Shown: positions 39,566-48,741, counted from the first letter of the stretch. The stretch is DNA of 56,033 nt from Nitrospira sp. (GCA_030444405.1 JARFPM010000028.1:1-56033), one strand, 5' to 3'. Numbers and translations: made by a program. The notes: a model not told the origin generated them from the letters alone.

Positions 39566-40444
39566 ATGAAGCCTTCTAAATCCGTCTTGCCCTCCCTACT
39601 TCTTAGTCGCCCGCTTGTCGGCAAGCTGATGCGACTCTACGATTACCCGTACCCCGGTCGACAGGGACGCATAATCCGCGGCTATGATCGGCCCCATGCC
39701 GTACGAACGGCGAAGATGTGTGTGACCGTTGCCGATCGCTTAGGACATCCACGCGATCGGGTACGGCGCTATCATAGTGCCTGCCTTTTGCACGACCTGG
39801 GTCGCGCCGGCCTCGATCGGCAACTCTTTGGAACGATTTGGTCTTGGGCCAAGCAACGGGGCATTCCGACGAGGCCTCGTGAATGGCGTGCCCTTCACCC
39901 GAGGACGACGTATGGCCGGGAGACAGAGGCTTTCGTTTCGTTGTATCGCCGGGATCTTATCGCCTCCGGCGTACCTATGGACCCATGGGCTTTCGAACAG
40001 ATCGAAATGCGTCTTGGCTATGCTCGGCGCCTTGCCAGACGATTGCGTGTGGTGAAACCGCAGTTGAAGACGCTTGGCGTCGAGTGGCAACCTTGGATGC
40101 AGCAGGTGATGCTGTATTACTATTACCCGGAACGGTTGGCTAAGGCAAAGGCATGGGTGCGGCAATTGGCGGAGATCCTGGTCGCCTGCGAACAATTTGA
40201 GGCTTACAGCAATCAGCGCCGGGGACGCGATTATTATGCTCGGGACAAAGAGAGTTTGCCGGAGGCCTTTGCCTATCTCGACAAGCTGAGGCAAGAAGGC
40301 ATTCTGAGCGATGAGGTCTTGAACGTCGTACGATTGCTGACGGCCGAGGGCGCGTTCGATCCCATTTTGGAGGAGGCGCGAGGCGAGCCGCTGACCCGGA
40401 GCGACCGCCGCTACCTTCGCAGCCTCGCGGGTCGGAGGCTATGA
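39566..40444 (+). CDS. HD-domain protein, first gene of the proteasome-side run
   Basis: 292 residues. An HD hydrolase core: GYDRPHAVRTAKMCVTVADR (first His), HSACLLHDLGRAGLD (His-Asp and helix). An Arg-rich middle and the C-terminal part SYLPEAFAYLDKL-like region (KESLPEAFAYLDKLRQEGIL) resemble HD-GYP helper segments, but the GYP motif is not seen. It probably acts on a nucleotide or phosphoester. Its stop overlaps the next start (ATGATG). Confidence 0.7.
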   Translation: MKPSKSVLPSLLLSRPLVGKLMRLYDYPYPGRQGRIIRGYDRPHAVRTAKMCVTVADRLGHPRDRVRRYHSACLLHDLGRAGLDRQLFGTIWSWAKQRGIPTRPREWRALHPRTTYGRETEAFVSLYRRDLIASGVPMDPWAFEQIEMRLGYARRLARRLRVVKPQLKTLGVEWQPWMQQVMLYYYYPERLAKAKAWVRQLAEILVACEQFEAYSNQRRGRDYYARDKESLPEAFAYLDKLRQEGILSDEVLNVVRLLTAEGAFDPILEEARGEPLTRSDRRYLRSLAGRRL

Positions 40445-40858
40445 TGGGTGTCCATACCGTTTCGCTGACGATCCGTATGGAAGGTAATACGCAGGTCGAC
40501 AACATCACGAAATCCGTTGCCGATGCCGTGGCTGGTTCCGACCTGAAAGCCGGAATCGTGACGGTCTTCGTCAAACACACCACCGCCTCCGTCATGATTA
40601 TTGAGGACGAACCAGGGATTCGCGCAGACACGAAAACATTCTGGGATCGTCTCGTTCCTCCTAACCCCCGGTGGCGGCACAACACGGTCAATCAGGGAGA
40701 AGACAACGGTCACAGCCATCTTCGAGGGCAACTCCAAGGGCCGTCCGTCATCATTCCGTTTGCGGACGGTGCGCTTCTACTCGGCACGTGGCAGCAAATC
40801 GTAGTAGTGGATTTCGATACCCGCGCCAGAATGCGTGAACTTGTCGTGCAGGTTCTGG

Positions 40859-40866
<8 letters not shown>
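40441..40866 (+). CDS. yjbQ: YjbQ-family protein (UPF0047)
   Basis: 141 residues. The family signature is complete: VFVKHTTASVMIIEDEPGI and the cluster GEDNGHSHLRGQL, then FADGALLLGTWQQIVVVDFD. The fold forms trimers with a metal or phosphate site made of the His residues. Thiamine-phosphate synthase-like activity has been reported for some members; the role in the cell is unsettled. It overlaps the genes on either side by 4 and 8 bp. Confidence 0.92.
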
Positions 40867-41977
<1,111 letters not shown>

Positions 41978-42041: not shown

Positions 42042-43778
42042 GTGAGTGATCGCAGAGCTCCTGAACAGGAAGAACCTAAAGATCGGAGCGATGAGCCGTC
42101 GCTGAAGACCGGAACCGATCCGCTCGAATTGATTGAGCAATGTCTGGCCTCATTCCCAGAGGGGGATGCTCGACAGAAGCTGCTGTACAAGCTGCGCCAT
42201 GCGGTGACCCTGTCTGAAGCAGCCCATCAACAACGTGAACTGGAATTCAAGAAAGTCAGCGAGGTGGTCGCCAAACTGACGGCACCGGCTAATCGAATCG
42301 GTACTCTACTCGATGTTCCGGGTGAGGGACTCGCCCGCATCATCGTCGGTGGGGCCGAGTATTATGCCAACGTGGACCCCCGTGTCTCCTCTACGGATCT
42401 TAAGGTCGGAACACAGATTCTGGTCAACGAAGCCTACGCCGTGATCAAGACGCTCGGGTACGATCGTAATGGACCCATCTTGAAACTGGCCGAGGCCATG
42501 TCCGATGGACGACTGCGGTTTGAACAGGAGATGGGCCGGCAATCGTTGATTTTACAGAGGTCGACCGATCTTGTGGGTGTGGAACTTAAGGCGGGCGATG
42601 AAATTCGCATCGATCCCAGCTATCGTGTGGCGATCGAGAAGCTCACAGATCGCAAGACACATCGTCATGTCCTCGATGATCCTCCCAAGGTCACGTGGGA
42701 GCAGATCGGCGGGCAGAACGAGGCGATCGCCGGCATCCGAAAGGCGATCGAGTATCCGTTGTTGCATGCGGAGACGTTTGAACGGTTCAAGTTTTCCCAA
42801 CCGAAGGGTTTTCTCCTCTATGGCCCACCGGGATGTGGGAAGACGCTCATCGGGCAAGCGGCAGCCGGTAGCTTGGCCAAACTGGTCGGTGAATCAAAGC
42901 AGGAGCGAACATCTGATACGGACAAGCGTCCGCCGGTGACAAGCGGAGCATTCCTGCATGTGAAAGGGCCTGAAATCCTCAACATGTGGCTCGGGGAATC
43001 GGAGCGGATGGTTCGCGATCTCTTCGAACAGGCCCGGGCGAGACGCAAGGACGGCGCCTTACCGTTCATCTTTATCGATGAAGCGGAGTCGATTTTGGGA
43101 ACGCGACGTGCCATGCGGTCCTTCAATATCTCGAACACGCTTGTTCCGATGTTTTGCAGCGAAATGGACGGCATCGAGTCGCTCCGTGATGTGGTCATTA
43201 TTTTGGCTTCCAACCGCCCTGACCTGATCGATCCGGCGGTGCTGCGCCCAGGCCGCATCGATCGGAAGATCAAAGTCGGTCGGCCGAACAAGGACGCAGC
43301 AGCCGAGATTCTGAAGGTGTATATGACCGCGGATCTGCCGCTCGATCCGGTGCTGCTGAAGGAACGGGGCGGTGAGCCGGTGCAGGCAATGGCCTCGCTA
43401 GTCGAAGACATCATTGAGTCAATCTTCCGTCGAACGGAGGATAATCGGCTTCTGTCGATCCGGCTCAGGAGCGGGCAGAGCAAGGTGCTGTACCGCGGTG
43501 ATCTCATCAGCGGGGCGATCCTGGCGTCGATCGTTCAACGTGCCAAGGAAAAAGCGGTCGATCGTACAGTTCAGTCGGGGCAGCCGGCTGGGTTGCTGGT
43601 GGAAGACTTACGGGATGCGGTCTCGGAGGAATTCCGAGAAGGCGAGATGTTACCGCCGGATGATGCGGCAGAGGAATGGCTGAAGTTGCTGGATCATCAC
43701 CCTGAACAGGTTGTTGGGATTTCGTCATTTCGGCGGGGACGTCGGACAGAAGAGCGCCCCGTGAATCAGATCATTTGA
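42042..43778 (+). CDS. arc: proteasome-activating AAA ATPase (ARC/Mpa)
   Basis: 578 residues from a GTG behind GGGAGGAAC. Domains: disordered acidic N-terminus (1-28), coiled coil (~45-80) that in Mpa captures the Pup tag, two OB domains (~82-205) and the AAA module (~215-480) with Walker A GPPGCGKT (261-268) and Walker B FIFIDEAES (343-350). It unfolds tagged proteins and feeds the PrcAB core. Unlike mycobacterial Mpa, the C-terminus (RPVNQII) shows no GQYL or HbYX-type docking end. The spacing to htrA is 64 bp. Confidence 0.93.
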   Translation: MSDRRAPEQEEPKDRSDEPSLKTGTDPLELIEQCLASFPEGDARQKLLYKLRHAVTLSEAAHQQRELEFKKVSEVVAKLTAPANRIGTLLDVPGEGLARIIVGGAEYYANVDPRVSSTDLKVGTQILVNEAYAVIKTLGYDRNGPILKLAEAMSDGRLRFEQEMGRQSLILQRSTDLVGVELKAGDEIRIDPSYRVAIEKLTDRKTHRHVLDDPPKVTWEQIGGQNEAIAGIRKAIEYPLLHAETFERFKFSQPKGFLLYGPPGCGKTLIGQAAAGSLAKLVGESKQERTSDTDKRPPVTSGAFLHVKGPEILNMWLGESERMVRDLFEQARARRKDGALPFIFIDEAESILGTRRAMRSFNISNTLVPMFCSEMDGIESLRDVVIILASNRPDLIDPAVLRPGRIDRKIKVGRPNKDAAAEILKVYMTADLPLDPVLLKERGGEPVQAMASLVEDIIESIFRRTEDNRLLSIRLRSGQSKVLYRGDLISGAILASIVQRAKEKAVDRTVQSGQPAGLLVEDLRDAVSEEFREGEMLPPDDAAEEWLKLLDHHPEQVVGISSFRRGRRTEERPVNQII

Positions 43779-43865
43779 GGAAAGGCTGACAGGTAACAAG
43801 CTGACAAGACCTCGGTGACTCGAGCGTCTCAGCCTGTGGCTTGTAAGCATGTCAGCAGGGGGCTC

Positions 43866-45392
43866 ATGCGTCTTTTTGGCATCGAAACTGAGTACGGGAT
43901 TATGAGGGATGACGTACCGGAGATGGATTCGGTTGTGGAATCGATGGAATTGGTTCGGGCACACCTCGTCTCCTCATTCGAGCGGCGTTGGGACTATGCC
44001 GGTGAGGATCCTCATGAGGATGCTCGCGGCTTCCGTGTCTCAGGCTTGCAGCAGGATAGAGAAGAGGATGAGTTCGCACAACGCGATGCCCATCGTCCAT
44101 TTTCTTTCCATGAGATGAAAAGTGACCTCGTGTTGCCGAACGGCGCGCGATTTTACAACGATCACACGCATCCGGAGTATTCGACGCCTGAGTGCCGGAC
44201 ACTGAGAGACCTGCTGGCTCAGGATCGCACGGGAGAACGTATCGTCCTACGTGCCGCCCAGTGTCGCAATCGAGTCCTCGGCGGAGCGTACATCCGGCTG
44301 TATAAAAACAACACGGATTTCCACGGCCACAGTTATGGCTGTCACGACAACTATCTCGTACCGCGGTCCGTTCCCTTTTCGGCTCTTGTTGCCGGCTTGG
44401 TGCCCTTCTTGGTAAGCCGACAAGTGATTGCCGGTGCAGGAAAGGTCGGTACTGAAGCGCAGGAGTCCGGACATCTTCCAGGGCGGTATCAGCTCTCGCA
44501 GCGCGCTGACTTTATGGAAACGGAATTAGGTGTGGATACGATGCATAACCGGCCAATCCTCAACACGAGAGACGAGCCCCATGCGGATCGCGGGAAATAT
44601 CGCCGGCTCCATCTCATCATCGGCGATGCCAACATGTGCGAGTATGCGACAGCGTTGAAGGTCGGCACGACCAGGCTCGTACTCGATCTCATCGAGCGAG
44701 GGGCTATGCCTCATATCGAGTTGGATCAGCCGGTGGCTGCAGTGAAACAGTTGTCGCGAGATTCGGACCTGAAAGCAGTGGTTCGTCTCAAGAACGGACA
44801 GAGACTATCTGCTGTGGAGCTTCAAGAGCATTACTGTGAGGCGGCACGCCGTGAGTTAGCCGGATCAGACGAGGAGTCGGATTGGCTGTTGACCGAGTGG
44901 AGTGACACCTTGCGTCTGTTATCTCAAGACCGCTCACAGTTAGTGGGGAAACTAGATTGGGTCACGAAACAGTGGTTGCTCGAGACCTTCATGCGGGAAG
45001 AACGAATCGGTTGGGATGATCCCTGGTTGGCAAGCTTGGATTTGGAGTATCACAATGTAGACCCCGAACAGGGGCTTTACCTGGGGTTGGAAGGAGACGG
45101 GAAAGTTTGGCGGATGACGACCGACAACATGATTGAGGAGGCGGTTCGGAACGGGCCAAGAGATACACGCGGCGGGTTACGCGGGGTCTGTGTGCAGCGG
45201 TTTTCTGATCAGATTAAGTCGATGCAATGGGAGCGGATTCAATTCGCAGGCGGACTACGCTCCCACCATCTCGACATGGGAGATCTCTTTAATCCGCAGG
45301 AAGTCCGACGTTGTATCGATGTTTTTCAACATGCCCATTCACCGGCTGATGCGCTGGCAACGTGGAGCCACAGAAAGGAAATGGAGACATGA
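43866..45392 (+). CDS. dop: Dop-like depupylase/deUBactylase
   Basis: 508 residues from ATG 43866 (the frame extends 17 codons upstream without support). PafA/Dop carboxylate-amine-ligase fold: RLFGIETEYGI (Glu7) and VLPNGARFYNDHTHPEYSTP, with Asp99 as the expected nucleophile. The assignment to Dop rests on the ND-H-THPEYSTPE form and on an acidic insertion at ~43-86 in the place of the Dop loop. The role would be removing UBact from substrates. It overlaps the UBact gene (ATGA). Confidence 0.87.
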   Translation: MRLFGIETEYGIMRDDVPEMDSVVESMELVRAHLVSSFERRWDYAGEDPHEDARGFRVSGLQQDREEDEFAQRDAHRPFSFHEMKSDLVLPNGARFYNDHTHPEYSTPECRTLRDLLAQDRTGERIVLRAAQCRNRVLGGAYIRLYKNNTDFHGHSYGCHDNYLVPRSVPFSALVAGLVPFLVSRQVIAGAGKVGTEAQESGHLPGRYQLSQRADFMETELGVDTMHNRPILNTRDEPHADRGKYRRLHLIIGDANMCEYATALKVGTTRLVLDLIERGAMPHIELDQPVAAVKQLSRDSDLKAVVRLKNGQRLSAVELQEHYCEAARRELAGSDEESDWLLTEWSDTLRLLSQDRSQLVGKLDWVTKQWLLETFMREERIGWDDPWLASLDLEYHNVDPEQGLYLGLEGDGKVWRMTTDNMIEEAVRNGPRDTRGGLRGVCVQRFSDQIKSMQWERIQFAGGLRSHHLDMGDLFNPQEVRRCIDVFQHAHSPADALATWSHRKEMET

Positions 45393-45583
45393 AATACAGC
45401 ATGATGCCGGAACGGCGCGAGGGTCCAGTCGATCCCATGCCAAAATCGCCCCGTCCTCTTGAAGAGGGAGGTGGGCCGCGCCGTCCGGAGACGGGATCGC
45501 CGGACAAAGATAGTCTCATGAAGCGGATGCGAAAAGTCGACCCAAAACAGGCGGAACGGTATCGGCAGAGAACGGGGGAATAA
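45389..45583 (+). CDS. UBact: UBact, ubiquitin-like protein modifier
   Basis: 64 residues, start overlapping the dop stop. It is hydrophilic and largely disordered, rich in Pro, Gly, Glu, Arg and Lys, with a helical part (SLMKRMRKVDPKQAERYRQR) and the end RTGE. It is the tag of the Pup-like system described in Nitrospirota and related phyla, conjugated through its C-terminal Glu by PafA. Because the last residue is already Glu, no Gln deamidation step is needed. Position between dop and prcB is the standard one. Confidence 0.93.
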   Translation: MKYSMMPERREGPVDPMPKSPRPLEEGGGPRRPETGSPDKDSLMKRMRKVDPKQAERYRQRTGE

Positions 45584-45669
45584 CAAGAAAAGTGGTGAGT
45601 CTTTAGTCAGAGGTCTTGACGAGGAGTAGTACGTCATCACCTAGCTCGAACTCAAGACTTTGGTGAGAA

Positions 45670-46443
45670 ATGGGCATGCAGGGCGATTTTTATCAGCTCT
45701 TGAAAGAAAAAGGATACGTGTTCGGAGTGCCGGGGCAGGCCGGAGCAGGGCAGGAACTGACGACAGCAACAACCATCCTTGCCTTGAAGTATCGCGAAGG
45801 TGTTCTGGTCGCCGGGGATCGGCGCGCGACAGCCGGAAATATGGTGATGTACGACCGCACTGACAAGGTATTGGAGATTGATCGGCATAGTGTTATGGCG
45901 ATCGCCGGAGTGCCGGCGACCGCCTATGAAATGGCGCGTATCCTCGAACATTCTTTCAAGTATTTTCGGCGGACACAGCTTCAGGAACTTAGCTTTGAGG
46001 GGAAACTCAGGGCCCTCTCGAAATTGCTGAAGGACAACGTTCCGGCAGCGCTGGCGGGTACGGGTGCTGTGGCGCCGATCTTTGCCGGGTACGACTTCGA
46101 GCAGGAAACGGCGAAGATCTATTTTTACGACATTCTCGGTGCGGAGTTTGAAGGAGTGGACTATGCGGTATCCGGGTCCGGTTCACCGACCATTCGCGGG
46201 ATCCTGCATTACTTGAATACATGGGGCGAACAGCCGCTGAGTGCAATGCCGGAAGAGCAGGCGACCGTTCAGGCGTTGAGGCTATTGACGAGCGCCGCGG
46301 AATTCGACAGCGCAACTGGAGGAGTCAACCGGGATGCCGGTCTCTATCCGGTGATCAAATTCATCACCGCCTCCGGTGTGCGCACGATGCCGGACGCTCA
46401 ATTGAAGCCCTTGTTTGAGACAAAGGTCTGCCGCCATGTATGA
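45670..46443 (+). CDS. prcB: proteasome beta subunit, catalytic
   Basis: 257 residues. A propeptide of about 33 residues ends at ELTTA, and the mature chain should begin at Thr34 (TTILALKYREGVLVAGDRRA). The conserved Lys/Asp neighbourhood (AGDRRATAGN, DKVLEID) fits the N-terminal nucleophile hydrolase site. It forms the two inner rings. The stop overlaps the prcA start by 8 bp. Confidence 0.94.
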   Translation: MGMQGDFYQLLKEKGYVFGVPGQAGAGQELTTATTILALKYREGVLVAGDRRATAGNMVMYDRTDKVLEIDRHSVMAIAGVPATAYEMARILEHSFKYFRRTQLQELSFEGKLRALSKLLKDNVPAALAGTGAVAPIFAGYDFEQETAKIYFYDILGAEFEGVDYAVSGSGSPTIRGILHYLNTWGEQPLSAMPEEQATVQALRLLTSAAEFDSATGGVNRDAGLYPVIKFITASGVRTMPDAQLKPLFETKVCRHV

Positions 46444-47245
46444 AGAACCATATAAATGGGTCGAAGCGGTTGGCAATCGTCGGACCTATCTCGACGAGCA
46501 GTTTAAGGAGGGGTCCCCTGTTGTCGGAGTCTCGTGTGAGCGAGGCATTCTGCTCATGACGATGAGCAAAGGCACACCCAAGTTATATGAGATTTACGAT
46601 CGTCTAGCCCTGGGGGGGATGGGTCACCCGGCTGATCTTGAGAAGCTGCGCTTCACTCTGTTGGAGATGGCTCACGTCGAAGGATTCAATCGCTCAGCCT
46701 CCGATGTGACCGGAAGCCGGCTGGTGAAGTACGGTATGGCGCCGACAATCAAACAGGCGTTCGAAGAGGTGTTCAAGGCCCCCTTCATCGTGAAAATCTT
46801 GCTGGCAGAGCTAAGTCAGAAAGCCGGGAAGGACGGTTTCTTGACGATCAACTACGACGGGACTTTTGAAGAAAAGAACCAGTATGCGGTGCTTGCCGCT
46901 ACGTCGGCGGTCGAGCAGAGGATGGCTGGATATCTCAAGGAACAGTCTATTGCGTCTCTTGAGGACGCTGCAGGTGCGGCGATTCGCGCGTGGGCGGTCG
47001 GTGATCGAGCGCAGCGACGAACACTGGACGATGGGGAAGGCCATGGCGAATCGAAGACTGGCCCTGATCACCAGGCGATGGACTCTGAGACACTCTATGC
47101 GCATCTGCGGCGGTGCATTGCTGAAAAGACGGTCGAATGTGCCCTGCTTGATCGGCATGTGCAAGGACCCTCCAAGTATCGAGCACTTGGGACCGATGAA
47201 TTGAGAACAGTGCTTCCCAAGGATCTGAGCCCATCACTCTCGTAA
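46436..47245 (+). CDS. prcA: proteasome alpha subunit
   Basis: 269 residues from ATG 46436 inside the end of prcB. MYEEPYKWVEAVGNRRTYLD followed by SCERGILLMT and KLYEIYDRLALGGMG matches PrcA. The catalytic Thr is absent, as expected for the outer, gating rings. The C-terminal part (~200-269) is longer and less conserved than in actinobacteria. Its stop is 8 bp from pafA. Confidence 0.92.
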   Translation: MYEEPYKWVEAVGNRRTYLDEQFKEGSPVVGVSCERGILLMTMSKGTPKLYEIYDRLALGGMGHPADLEKLRFTLLEMAHVEGFNRSASDVTGSRLVKYGMAPTIKQAFEEVFKAPFIVKILLAELSQKAGKDGFLTINYDGTFEEKNQYAVLAATSAVEQRMAGYLKEQSIASLEDAAGAAIRAWAVGDRAQRRTLDDGEGHGESKTGPDHQAMDSETLYAHLRRCIAEKTVECALLDRHVQGPSKYRALGTDELRTVLPKDLSPSLS

Positions 47246-47253
47246 TAGATATC

Positions 47254-48741
47254 ATGTTGAATCGCATCTTCGGTTTGGAGACTGAGTACGGACTCTTGAT
47301 TCACGAAGACCGACCGAGCCATTCCCCGACATGGTTTGCCCATAGGATCCGTGACCATCTGTTCCGGGTCCAACGGCAAGGCGTGCTGGACCTACACCAT
47401 CGTGGGCACGATGAGCCTCCTGGTAACGGCGGCTTTCTGACCAACGCCGGACGCATCTATCTTGATATGGGGCATTTGGAGTATGCATCGCCGGAATGTC
47501 ATTCTCTGACCGATGTGGTGGCGTCGGATCGTGCCGGGGATCTCTTGCTGCAGCAAGCGATCGAAGACCTCGGCTATTCGGATCAGGTATCGTTGATCAA
47601 GAACAACATCGACCATGAGACGGATGCGACTTTCGGTTCGCATGAGAATTACCTGGTTTCTCGGCGGTTCCCTTTTTCGAGACGTGGGTTGGCTCCGCTC
47701 GTGACGTTTCTTGTGACCAGGCAGATTTTTACCGGCTCTGGGCGTGTCGGTTCCGCTGCCCTACAGGATGCCTGGATTCAGATGGATCGGTTACTCGTGC
47801 CACGCTCCTCTTTCGGTGCGCATCATGTATCGGAGCCGCCTTTTCAAATCTCCCAACGTGCCGACTATATCGTGAATGATTTTTTTGAATGGGTACAGCA
47901 CAACCGGGCGATTGTGAACACGAGGGATGAACCGTTAGCCGACCCCAATCAATACCGACGGATTCATCTGCTGCTGGGCGATTCCAACATGGCTGAATAT
48001 GCAACGGCATTGAAGCTCGGTACGACCGGACTTGTGTTACAGCTAATCGAAGAAGGACACGCACCTCAAGATCTAGAGATCGATGAACCGGTGGAAGCAC
48101 TCCAGGAGATTTCCCAGGATCAAGAACGGCGCTGGCTGGTCCAGTTGCAGTCTCACAAGACGTTGTCGGCTGTGGATATTCAAGAACGGTTTCTTGACTG
48201 TGCCGTCCAGCATTGCAGGGGGCAGGATGAAGAAACCGATTGGGTCCTTGCCCAATGGGCATCGGTGCTCCATGATCTGCGCGGCGATTATCAGAAGCTC
48301 GTTGGGCGTGTCGACTGGGCGTCCAAGCTGTGGTTGCTGGATTGCTTTCGAGAAGCGGAACATGTCGACTGGACCGACCCCATGCTGAAAAGTTTGGATT
48401 TGGAGTATCACAACCTGAATCCGGCGAAGGGGCTGTATCATGGATTATTGGAACAAGGCCGTGCCCCTCGTGTGACGACAGACCGCCTTATCCATCTTGC
48501 GATGGAAGCGGCGCCGAAAAACACGCGTGCCTACGGCCGCAGTGAACTGGTCAGACATCTCCTGAATGAGTGGCCCGCCTCAGCGACAGATCAGCTTCCA
48601 GCCCCTGATGGATTGTCCCCTCCCTATGTCATCAATTGGTCGATTTTTCAAGTGCGCGGTCATGCCCCGTTTTCCATGCCGGACCCGTTTAAGACCTATC
48701 TGGAAGATGTGCGGACACACCTCGAGCGCGCGATCGTCTAA
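47254..48741 (+). CDS. pafA: PafA-like UBact ligase
   Basis: 495 residues. RIFGLETEYGLLI (Glu9) and FLTNAGRIYLDMGHLEYASP with Asp71 follow the PafA pattern (FLxNGxRxYLDxG), and it lacks the acidic Dop loop. It also has a NMAEYATALKLGTTGLVLQL helix and RTRDEPLADP-like Mg site (VNTRDEPLADPNQYRR). It should activate the C-terminal Glu of UBact with ATP and join it to lysines. The stop TAA is followed at once by a dispersed repeat. Confidence 0.92.
   Translation: MLNRIFGLETEYGLLIHEDRPSHSPTWFAHRIRDHLFRVQRQGVLDLHHRGHDEPPGNGGFLTNAGRIYLDMGHLEYASPECHSLTDVVASDRAGDLLLQQAIEDLGYSDQVSLIKNNIDHETDATFGSHENYLVSRRFPFSRRGLAPLVTFLVTRQIFTGSGRVGSAALQDAWIQMDRLLVPRSSFGAHHVSEPPFQISQRADYIVNDFFEWVQHNRAIVNTRDEPLADPNQYRRIHLLLGDSNMAEYATALKLGTTGLVLQLIEEGHAPQDLEIDEPVEALQEISQDQERRWLVQLQSHKTLSAVDIQERFLDCAVQHCRGQDEETDWVLAQWASVLHDLRGDYQKLVGRVDWASKLWLLDCFREAEHVDWTDPMLKSLDLEYHNLNPAKGLYHGLLEQGRAPRVTTDRLIHLAMEAAPKNTRAYGRSELVRHLLNEWPASATDQLPAPDGLSPPYVINWSIFQVRGHAPFSMPDPFKTYLEDVRTHLERAIV

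Follow-up and report, generated by a model that had tools for sequence, protein, structure and literature searches.

The operon described here lies in a 56,033-nucleotide stretch of DNA from Nitrospira sp. (GCA_030444405.1, JARFPM010000028.1), referred to below as the window. It is likely to encode a self-contained tagging and proteolysis module; the cell would have a complete Pup module as well, from which the first is probably kept apart. This reading draws on the gene content of the operon and of its genome, on the catalytic residues, on genus-wide co-occurrence of the two sets, on the presence of one enzyme pair per tag and on the separate signatures that the two sets carry.

The UBact operon and its predicted functions

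Six plus-strand ORFs, all of them open, occupy positions 42042 to 48741 of the window in the order ARC, Dop, UBact, PrcB, PrcA and PafA (Table 1). The first-pass annotation of this DNA had described a complete, intact and co-directional UBact-type locus with overlaps or gaps of less than 90 bp and a 64-residue tag ending in RTGE, and the ORFs, coordinates and family matches bear out that description: the intergenic gaps are 87, 86 and 8 bp, Dop and UBact overlap by ATGA, and PrcB and PrcA overlap by 8 bp. The identical six-gene order was found in dozens of relatives and is conserved across families. Upstream of the operon (39566-41977) are genes for a 292-aa protein that has no Pfam or NCBIfam match, for YjbQ and for an HtrA-type protease; homologues of these three are present in 50-51 of the 53 long relative loci.

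Table 1. Features of the UBact operon, in coordinates of the window
Feature	Position	Strand	Match
UBact-type ARC (proteasomal AAA ATPase), 578 aa	42042..43778	+	Pfam AAA 8.5e-29, OB_N 2.3e-16, OB_C 1.8e-09
ARC C-terminal tail N-Q-I-I, replaces canonical GQYL/GHYL docking tail	43764..43775	+	
UBact-type Dop, 508 aa	43866..45392	+	Pup_ligase 1.5e-163; PDB Dop 1e-110
Acidic Dop loop DREEDEF in UBact-type Dop	44055-44075	+	
UBact tag, 64 aa, C-terminus RYRQRTGE	45389..45583	+	PF20513 4e-21; NF033388 1.1e-21
PrcB-type 20S beta subunit	45670..46443	+	Proteasome 4.8e-25; TIGR03690 166 bits; PDB beta subunits 8e-30
PrcA-type 20S alpha subunit, 269 aa from ATG 46436	46436..47245	+	TIGR03691 1.5e-18; PDB alpha subunits 3e-10
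UBact-type PafA, 495 aa, presumed UBact ligase	47254..48741	+	Pup_ligase 8.4e-130

The tag scores above both curated cutoffs (PF20513, 75 bits against 27.8; NF033388, 76.8 bits against 35). A UBact-family tag ending in R-T/S-G-E/Q is present together with linked Dop/PafA-family enzymes, ARC and 20S subunits, the combination that marks a UBact system; no Pup tag (PF05639) was found within the operon. The UBact-type ARC (u-ARC) begins with a short helical stretch, continues with two OB domains and an AAA domain, ends in ...ERPVNQII, keeps Walker A/B and the aromatic pore loop W-L-G, and matches Mpa structures at 2e-89 to 4e-93. The homologous start of the UBact-type Dop (u-Dop) is the ATG at 43866, while a GTG at 43815 opens the longest ORF; the protein carries the NDHTHPEYSTPE catalytic loop. 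In PrcB, a 33-residue propeptide precedes the mature N terminus TTILALKY, in which T1 is residue 34. T1, D17 and K33 are present here and in essentially all copies and, together with a separate alpha subunit (the second proteasome subunit, Pfam Proteasome 2.2e-05), characterize a bacterial 20S core. A first sign that these proteins form a separate branch is that all five larger ones score below the NCBIfam equivalog cutoffs (bits/cutoff: ARC, 438/505 for TIGR03689; Dop, 461/492 for TIGR03688; PrcB, 166/192; PrcA, 67/139; PafA, 318/551).

By analogy with PafA, the predicted role of the UBact-type PafA (u-PafA) is to phosphorylate the Glu at the end of UBact and to join the tag to target lysines, and u-Dop, by analogy with Dop, would cleave the conjugates and so recycle the tag. 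It can be envisaged that a u-ARC hexamer recognizes the C-terminal half of UBact, unfolds the target and feeds it into a 20S core of u-PrcA and u-PrcB. Catalysis, target attachment and degradation, as well as the absence of cross-talk with the Pup module, are what we infer for this operon from sequence. Since the tag ends in Glu, as does the Pup of the same genome, no deamidation should be needed. Among 160 related UBact C termini, 120 are RTGE and 40 are RTGQ. The earlier proposal that Dop would work only as a deconjugase therefore holds for the Glu-ending tag of the window but not for the enzyme: since the same Dop family also accompanies the 40 of 160 UBacts that end in Gln, a deconjugase-only role would be a property of the tag.

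The Pup-type set and the distribution of both sets

A search of the own assembly returned four Pup_ligase genes, two of which, for canonical-type Dop and PafA, lie on contig C140 with genes for ARC, PrcB and PrcA of the same type. The genome has one UBact and one Pup; the latter is on contig C64, ends in VQKGGE and has as its neighbor an ORF that, judged by eye, resembles a membrane pyrophosphatase. A tag concealed in the C140 locus was considered and rejected, as there is no space between Dop and PrcB. The first-pass gene list was thus complete for the locus but not for the genome, which has four ligase-family genes rather than two and a Pup in addition. Identity between the UBact-type proteins and the Pup-type copies of the same genome is 44% for Dop, 37% for ARC, 36% for PrcB, 32% for PafA and 28% for PrcA. 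The second module would accordingly comprise Pup, p-ARC, p-Dop, p-PafA and p-PrcA/B.

Because the own genome is a 170-contig assembly, it is through binning, together with the closed relatives, that C140 and C64 are tied to the window. Contamination as the origin of the second set was ruled out, since closed single-contig genomes, G107 among them, carry both the UBact and the Pup sets. In Nitrospira-type genomes, pup is far from its enzymes (L088, which is C64 of G000, and L267-L270), at a distance of ~50 kb in closed G001, ~215 kb in G107 and >1 Mb in G265; in other families of the class it is directly behind dop (L236-L238).

In a genus sample of 65 genomes with completeness of at least 85%, ligase-family genes were present in all, UBact in 57 and Pup in 62. 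In the phylum Nitrospirota (n = 296), UBact was found in 103 genomes, Pup in 140 and both in 100, that is, 100 of the 103 UBact carriers also have Pup. About 49 dual genomes would be expected if the tags were independent, a comparison for which a formal p-value would be unsafe because the genomes are related. The system, described at first pass as rare, is therefore common in this group. Of the 100 dual genomes, 93 have exactly four ligase-family genes; of the 40 Pup-only genomes, 34 have exactly two (these tag and ligase-family figures were tallied by hand from tables). A closed 2.56-Mb genome (G082, locus L257) has the UBact set only, with just u-Dop and u-PafA; no Pup set was detectable in it, and the rest of its family mostly carries both. 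Since the only enzymes of this family in G082 are UBact type, u-PafA is its sole candidate ligase.

In L117 (G023, contig C35), two UBact genes lie ~2.5 kb apart beside partial Dop and PafA matches, which suggests a partial duplication or an assembly join. A search of viral_contigs for u-PafA found nothing, and the plasmid and phage collections yielded only actinobacterial-type references (Nonomuraea, Tsukamurella and MT835496). The last of these (L273, MT835496.1 33724-55088) has homologues of ARC, Dop and PafA and is labelled Bacteriophage sp., probably in error for a piece of an actinobacterial chromosome.

Identity and ancestry of the presumed UBact ligase and hydrolase

The two ligase-fold paralogues of the operon can be told apart, as had been claimed, by the positions that discriminate between Dop and PafA (PMC7947786, Table 1). 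The first is Dop-like at S27, V31, H95, S101, F208 and E210, has the Dop loop and the DHTHPEY spacing, and scores 461 bits against the Dop model TIGR03688, just below the cutoff, and 369 against that of PafA. The Dop label that it had been given is accordingly sound (DREEDEF, H95, S101 and E210), but the PafA label of the second is less secure: the FLTNAGRIYLD form on which that label was based is present, yet the protein scores nearer to Dop (331 bits, and 318 for PafA, where the cutoff is 551). This second paralogue has no Dop loop and shows PafA states at F41, F54, L63 and A72; the one-residue PafA insertion (V65) is missing from 30 of 30 u-PafA copies, the alpha-loop resembles neither Dop nor PafA, and the best matches among PDB structures are to Dop rather than to PafA. 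By equivalog score and by its grouping in the best trees, u-PafA does not come out as a canonical PafA, although the standard split is not rejected under every model. Where canonical Dop and PafA share the motif DEPHAD, every aligned UBact-type PafA copy has DEPLADP. An AlphaFold model of u-PafA, built with 25 close relatives, had a mean pLDDT of 45.7 and was discarded.

The first-pass annotation had proposed grouping both paralogues with known Dop and PafA. When this was done, the first proved Dop-like and the second paired, in the best trees, with its own Dop and not with canonical PafA. In an unrooted tree of 105 sequences, u-Dop and u-PafA form one split (support, 99.8/100) and canonical PafA another, and majority-state patterns favor the UBact pair 22 times, the standard split 8 times and a third arrangement 4 times. 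Whole-protein topology tests prefer the pairing of u-Dop with u-PafA, which is the best quartet under every whole-protein model used. The standard split had an AU p of 0.035 under C20 and of 0.13 under LG+F+R4, at which it is not rejected; two of the three constrained tree searches of the LG+F+R4 test ended without a final score and the C20 test re-scored those same trees, so the constrained trees behind both values may be imperfectly optimized. So mixed a result neither refutes the two labels by the test proposed at first pass, in which both paralogues would group with Dop or both with PafA, nor clears them of it. We give even odds to the view that canonical Dop and PafA came from one duplication and the UBact ligase and hydrolase from another, such a pair having evolved twice. 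The tree, being unrooted, does not give the order of events, and both ends of the protein favor the standard history. If the separate origin is true, a tag ligase arose twice in one enzyme family.

The signal varies along the protein. It may alternatively be that u-PafA is an orthologue of canonical PafA, that Dop and PafA parted in a single ancient duplication older than either system, and that the pairing of u-PafA with u-Dop is secondary, a product of shared adaptation to a basic tag or of old gene conversion. The N- and C-terminal segments prefer such a single-duplication history, not significantly, and the PafA states of u-PafA, with its C-terminal DPF motif, are as this history would have them. 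With 34 charge-switched columns removed (aligned positions of about 290-370), the whole-protein test no longer decides between the histories (p, 0.44 and 0.24). Against it, columns 60-390 reject the standard split (AU, 0.0005) and still do so when the charge-switched columns are removed (0.03 and 0.008), the whole protein rejects it under C20, and both the best matches to Dop and the missing insertion are at odds with orthology to PafA. We hold a single ancient duplication to be a credible account, placed slightly on the improbable side.

Probable separation of the two systems and comparison with known systems

The proteins of 272 loci fall cleanly into UBact type and Pup type, and u-ARC, u-PrcB and u-PrcA each form a clade of their own (support, 1.0). 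Tails of GHYL or GHYF were found in 52 of 53 Pup-type ARC proteins. A penultimate Tyr, the hallmark of GQYL-type tails, occurs in none of 107 UBact-type ARC ORFs, most of which end in [N/S/G]QII, and the NQII of the window likewise has none. In Mpa, the GQYL tail is required for gate opening of the core (PMC8142254). The pocket Lys of PrcA is kept in UBact-type and Pup-type copies; two residues beyond it is Tyr in 154 of 157 UBact-type copies and Ser in 67 of 67 Pup-type copies, a Ser-to-Tyr change that would match the change in the ARC tail.

The tags themselves differ in charge. Over the last 30 residues, the mean is +4.1 for UBact (+2 to +5, n = 160) and -6.2 for Pup (-9 to -3, n = 67), so the ranges are of opposite sign and do not overlap. 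The UBact-type Dop and PafA have charges of approximately -20 and -22, and their Pup-type counterparts are at approximately -9. Both tags end alike, in Y/F-x-Q-[KR]-x-G-[E/Q]; the UBact profile gave no significant match to the Pup profile, and common descent of the tags is therefore not claimed.

The differences in charge and tail suggest insulation. The systems are probably kept apart by tags of opposite charge, by docking tails that differ between the ATPases and by a core dedicated to each. A broader reading, in which two such systems operate side by side and insulated in most Nitrospira, tag charge and docking tail have been rewired against cross-talk, and the ligase and hydrolase of UBact also evolved separately from canonical PafA and Dop, is put forward tentatively, as a conjunction that we rather doubt.

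We think it unlikely that the two tags share part of the machinery, either with their own ligases and a common core or with Dop, PafA and ARC that accept both tags. The common ending of the tags, the PrcA pocket Lys kept in both cores and the matching catalytic residues would favor such sharing, as would one UBact locus (L251; G158, C37:1700-11700) in which UBact, ARC, Dop and PafA are present, PrcB is cut down to an open frame of 180 aa and the interval from the tag to PafA gave no PrcA hit; this locus appears to have lost its intact core, which would suit a shared one. A dedicated core nevertheless accompanies UBact in nearly all complete loci, the tag charges are opposite, the ARC docking tails differ in essentially every genome, and UBact-only G082 has no Pup-type enzymes. 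That the UBact operon is a decaying or silent relic next to a working Pup system is highly improbable: 8 of the 65 genus genomes are without UBact and one locus is truncated, but the reading frames of all six genes are open, the catalytic residues are intact, gene order is conserved across families, and the final residues of the tag are nearly invariant over the whole phylum sample.

The UBact conjugation-proteasome system was reportedly named by Lehmann et al. in 2017. It is, as the first-pass annotation recognized, already known, as an established family (PF20513, NF033388), and with its tag family, gene order and Dop, PafA, ARC and 20S genes the operon itself is no different from it. The actinobacterial Pup-proteasome system (Mpa/ARC, Dop, Pup, PrcB, PrcA and PafA) is alike in component list and gene order. 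Unlike that system, the operon of the window has a tag of another family and charge, no GQYL-type Tyr and no PafA insertion, and its five larger proteins are all under the equivalog cutoffs.

Two divergent systems in one genome are reminiscent of Leptospirillum ferrooxidans, in which two whole and very different pupylation loci, L1 and L2, were described, the L2 "Pup" lacking GGE (Barandun et al. 2012, PMC3511204), as a UBact would. That report concerned one species and predates the UBact name, whereas here the pairing is genus-wide and found in most UBact carriers of the phylum. Likewise, a divergent Gram-negative subcluster of 20S alpha and beta subunits from armatimonadetes, nitrospirae and verrucomicrobia, set out in passages of Fuchs et al. 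2017 (PMC5666114), is probably the UBact-type core; co-occurrence with a Pup-type core in one genome is not described in those passages. In the literature the bacterial proteasome figures as a single system: according to a 2026 review (PMC13022661), a species of these orders has a single alpha and a single beta subunit, Rhodococcus erythropolis excepted, a statement that the gene content of Nitrospira contradicts. As far as the open-access literature goes, the genus-wide pairing of UBact with a full Pup system appears to be under-described.

Nitrite-oxidizing and comammox Nitrospira, a major environmental group, encode alpha subunit, beta subunit, ATPase, tag and ligase/hydrolase pair each in duplicate. 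In them, nature provides a test of how one cell keeps two ubiquitin-like systems separate, and their enzyme pairs also bear on how a hydrolase becomes a ligase. Trypsin remnants would distinguish the conjugates in one proteomic run (GGE of Pup, +243.09 Da; TGE of UBact, +287.11 Da). What these data add to the known UBact system is a co-resident Pup system, the ARC tail, the charge of the tag and the unsettled ancestry of the ligase.
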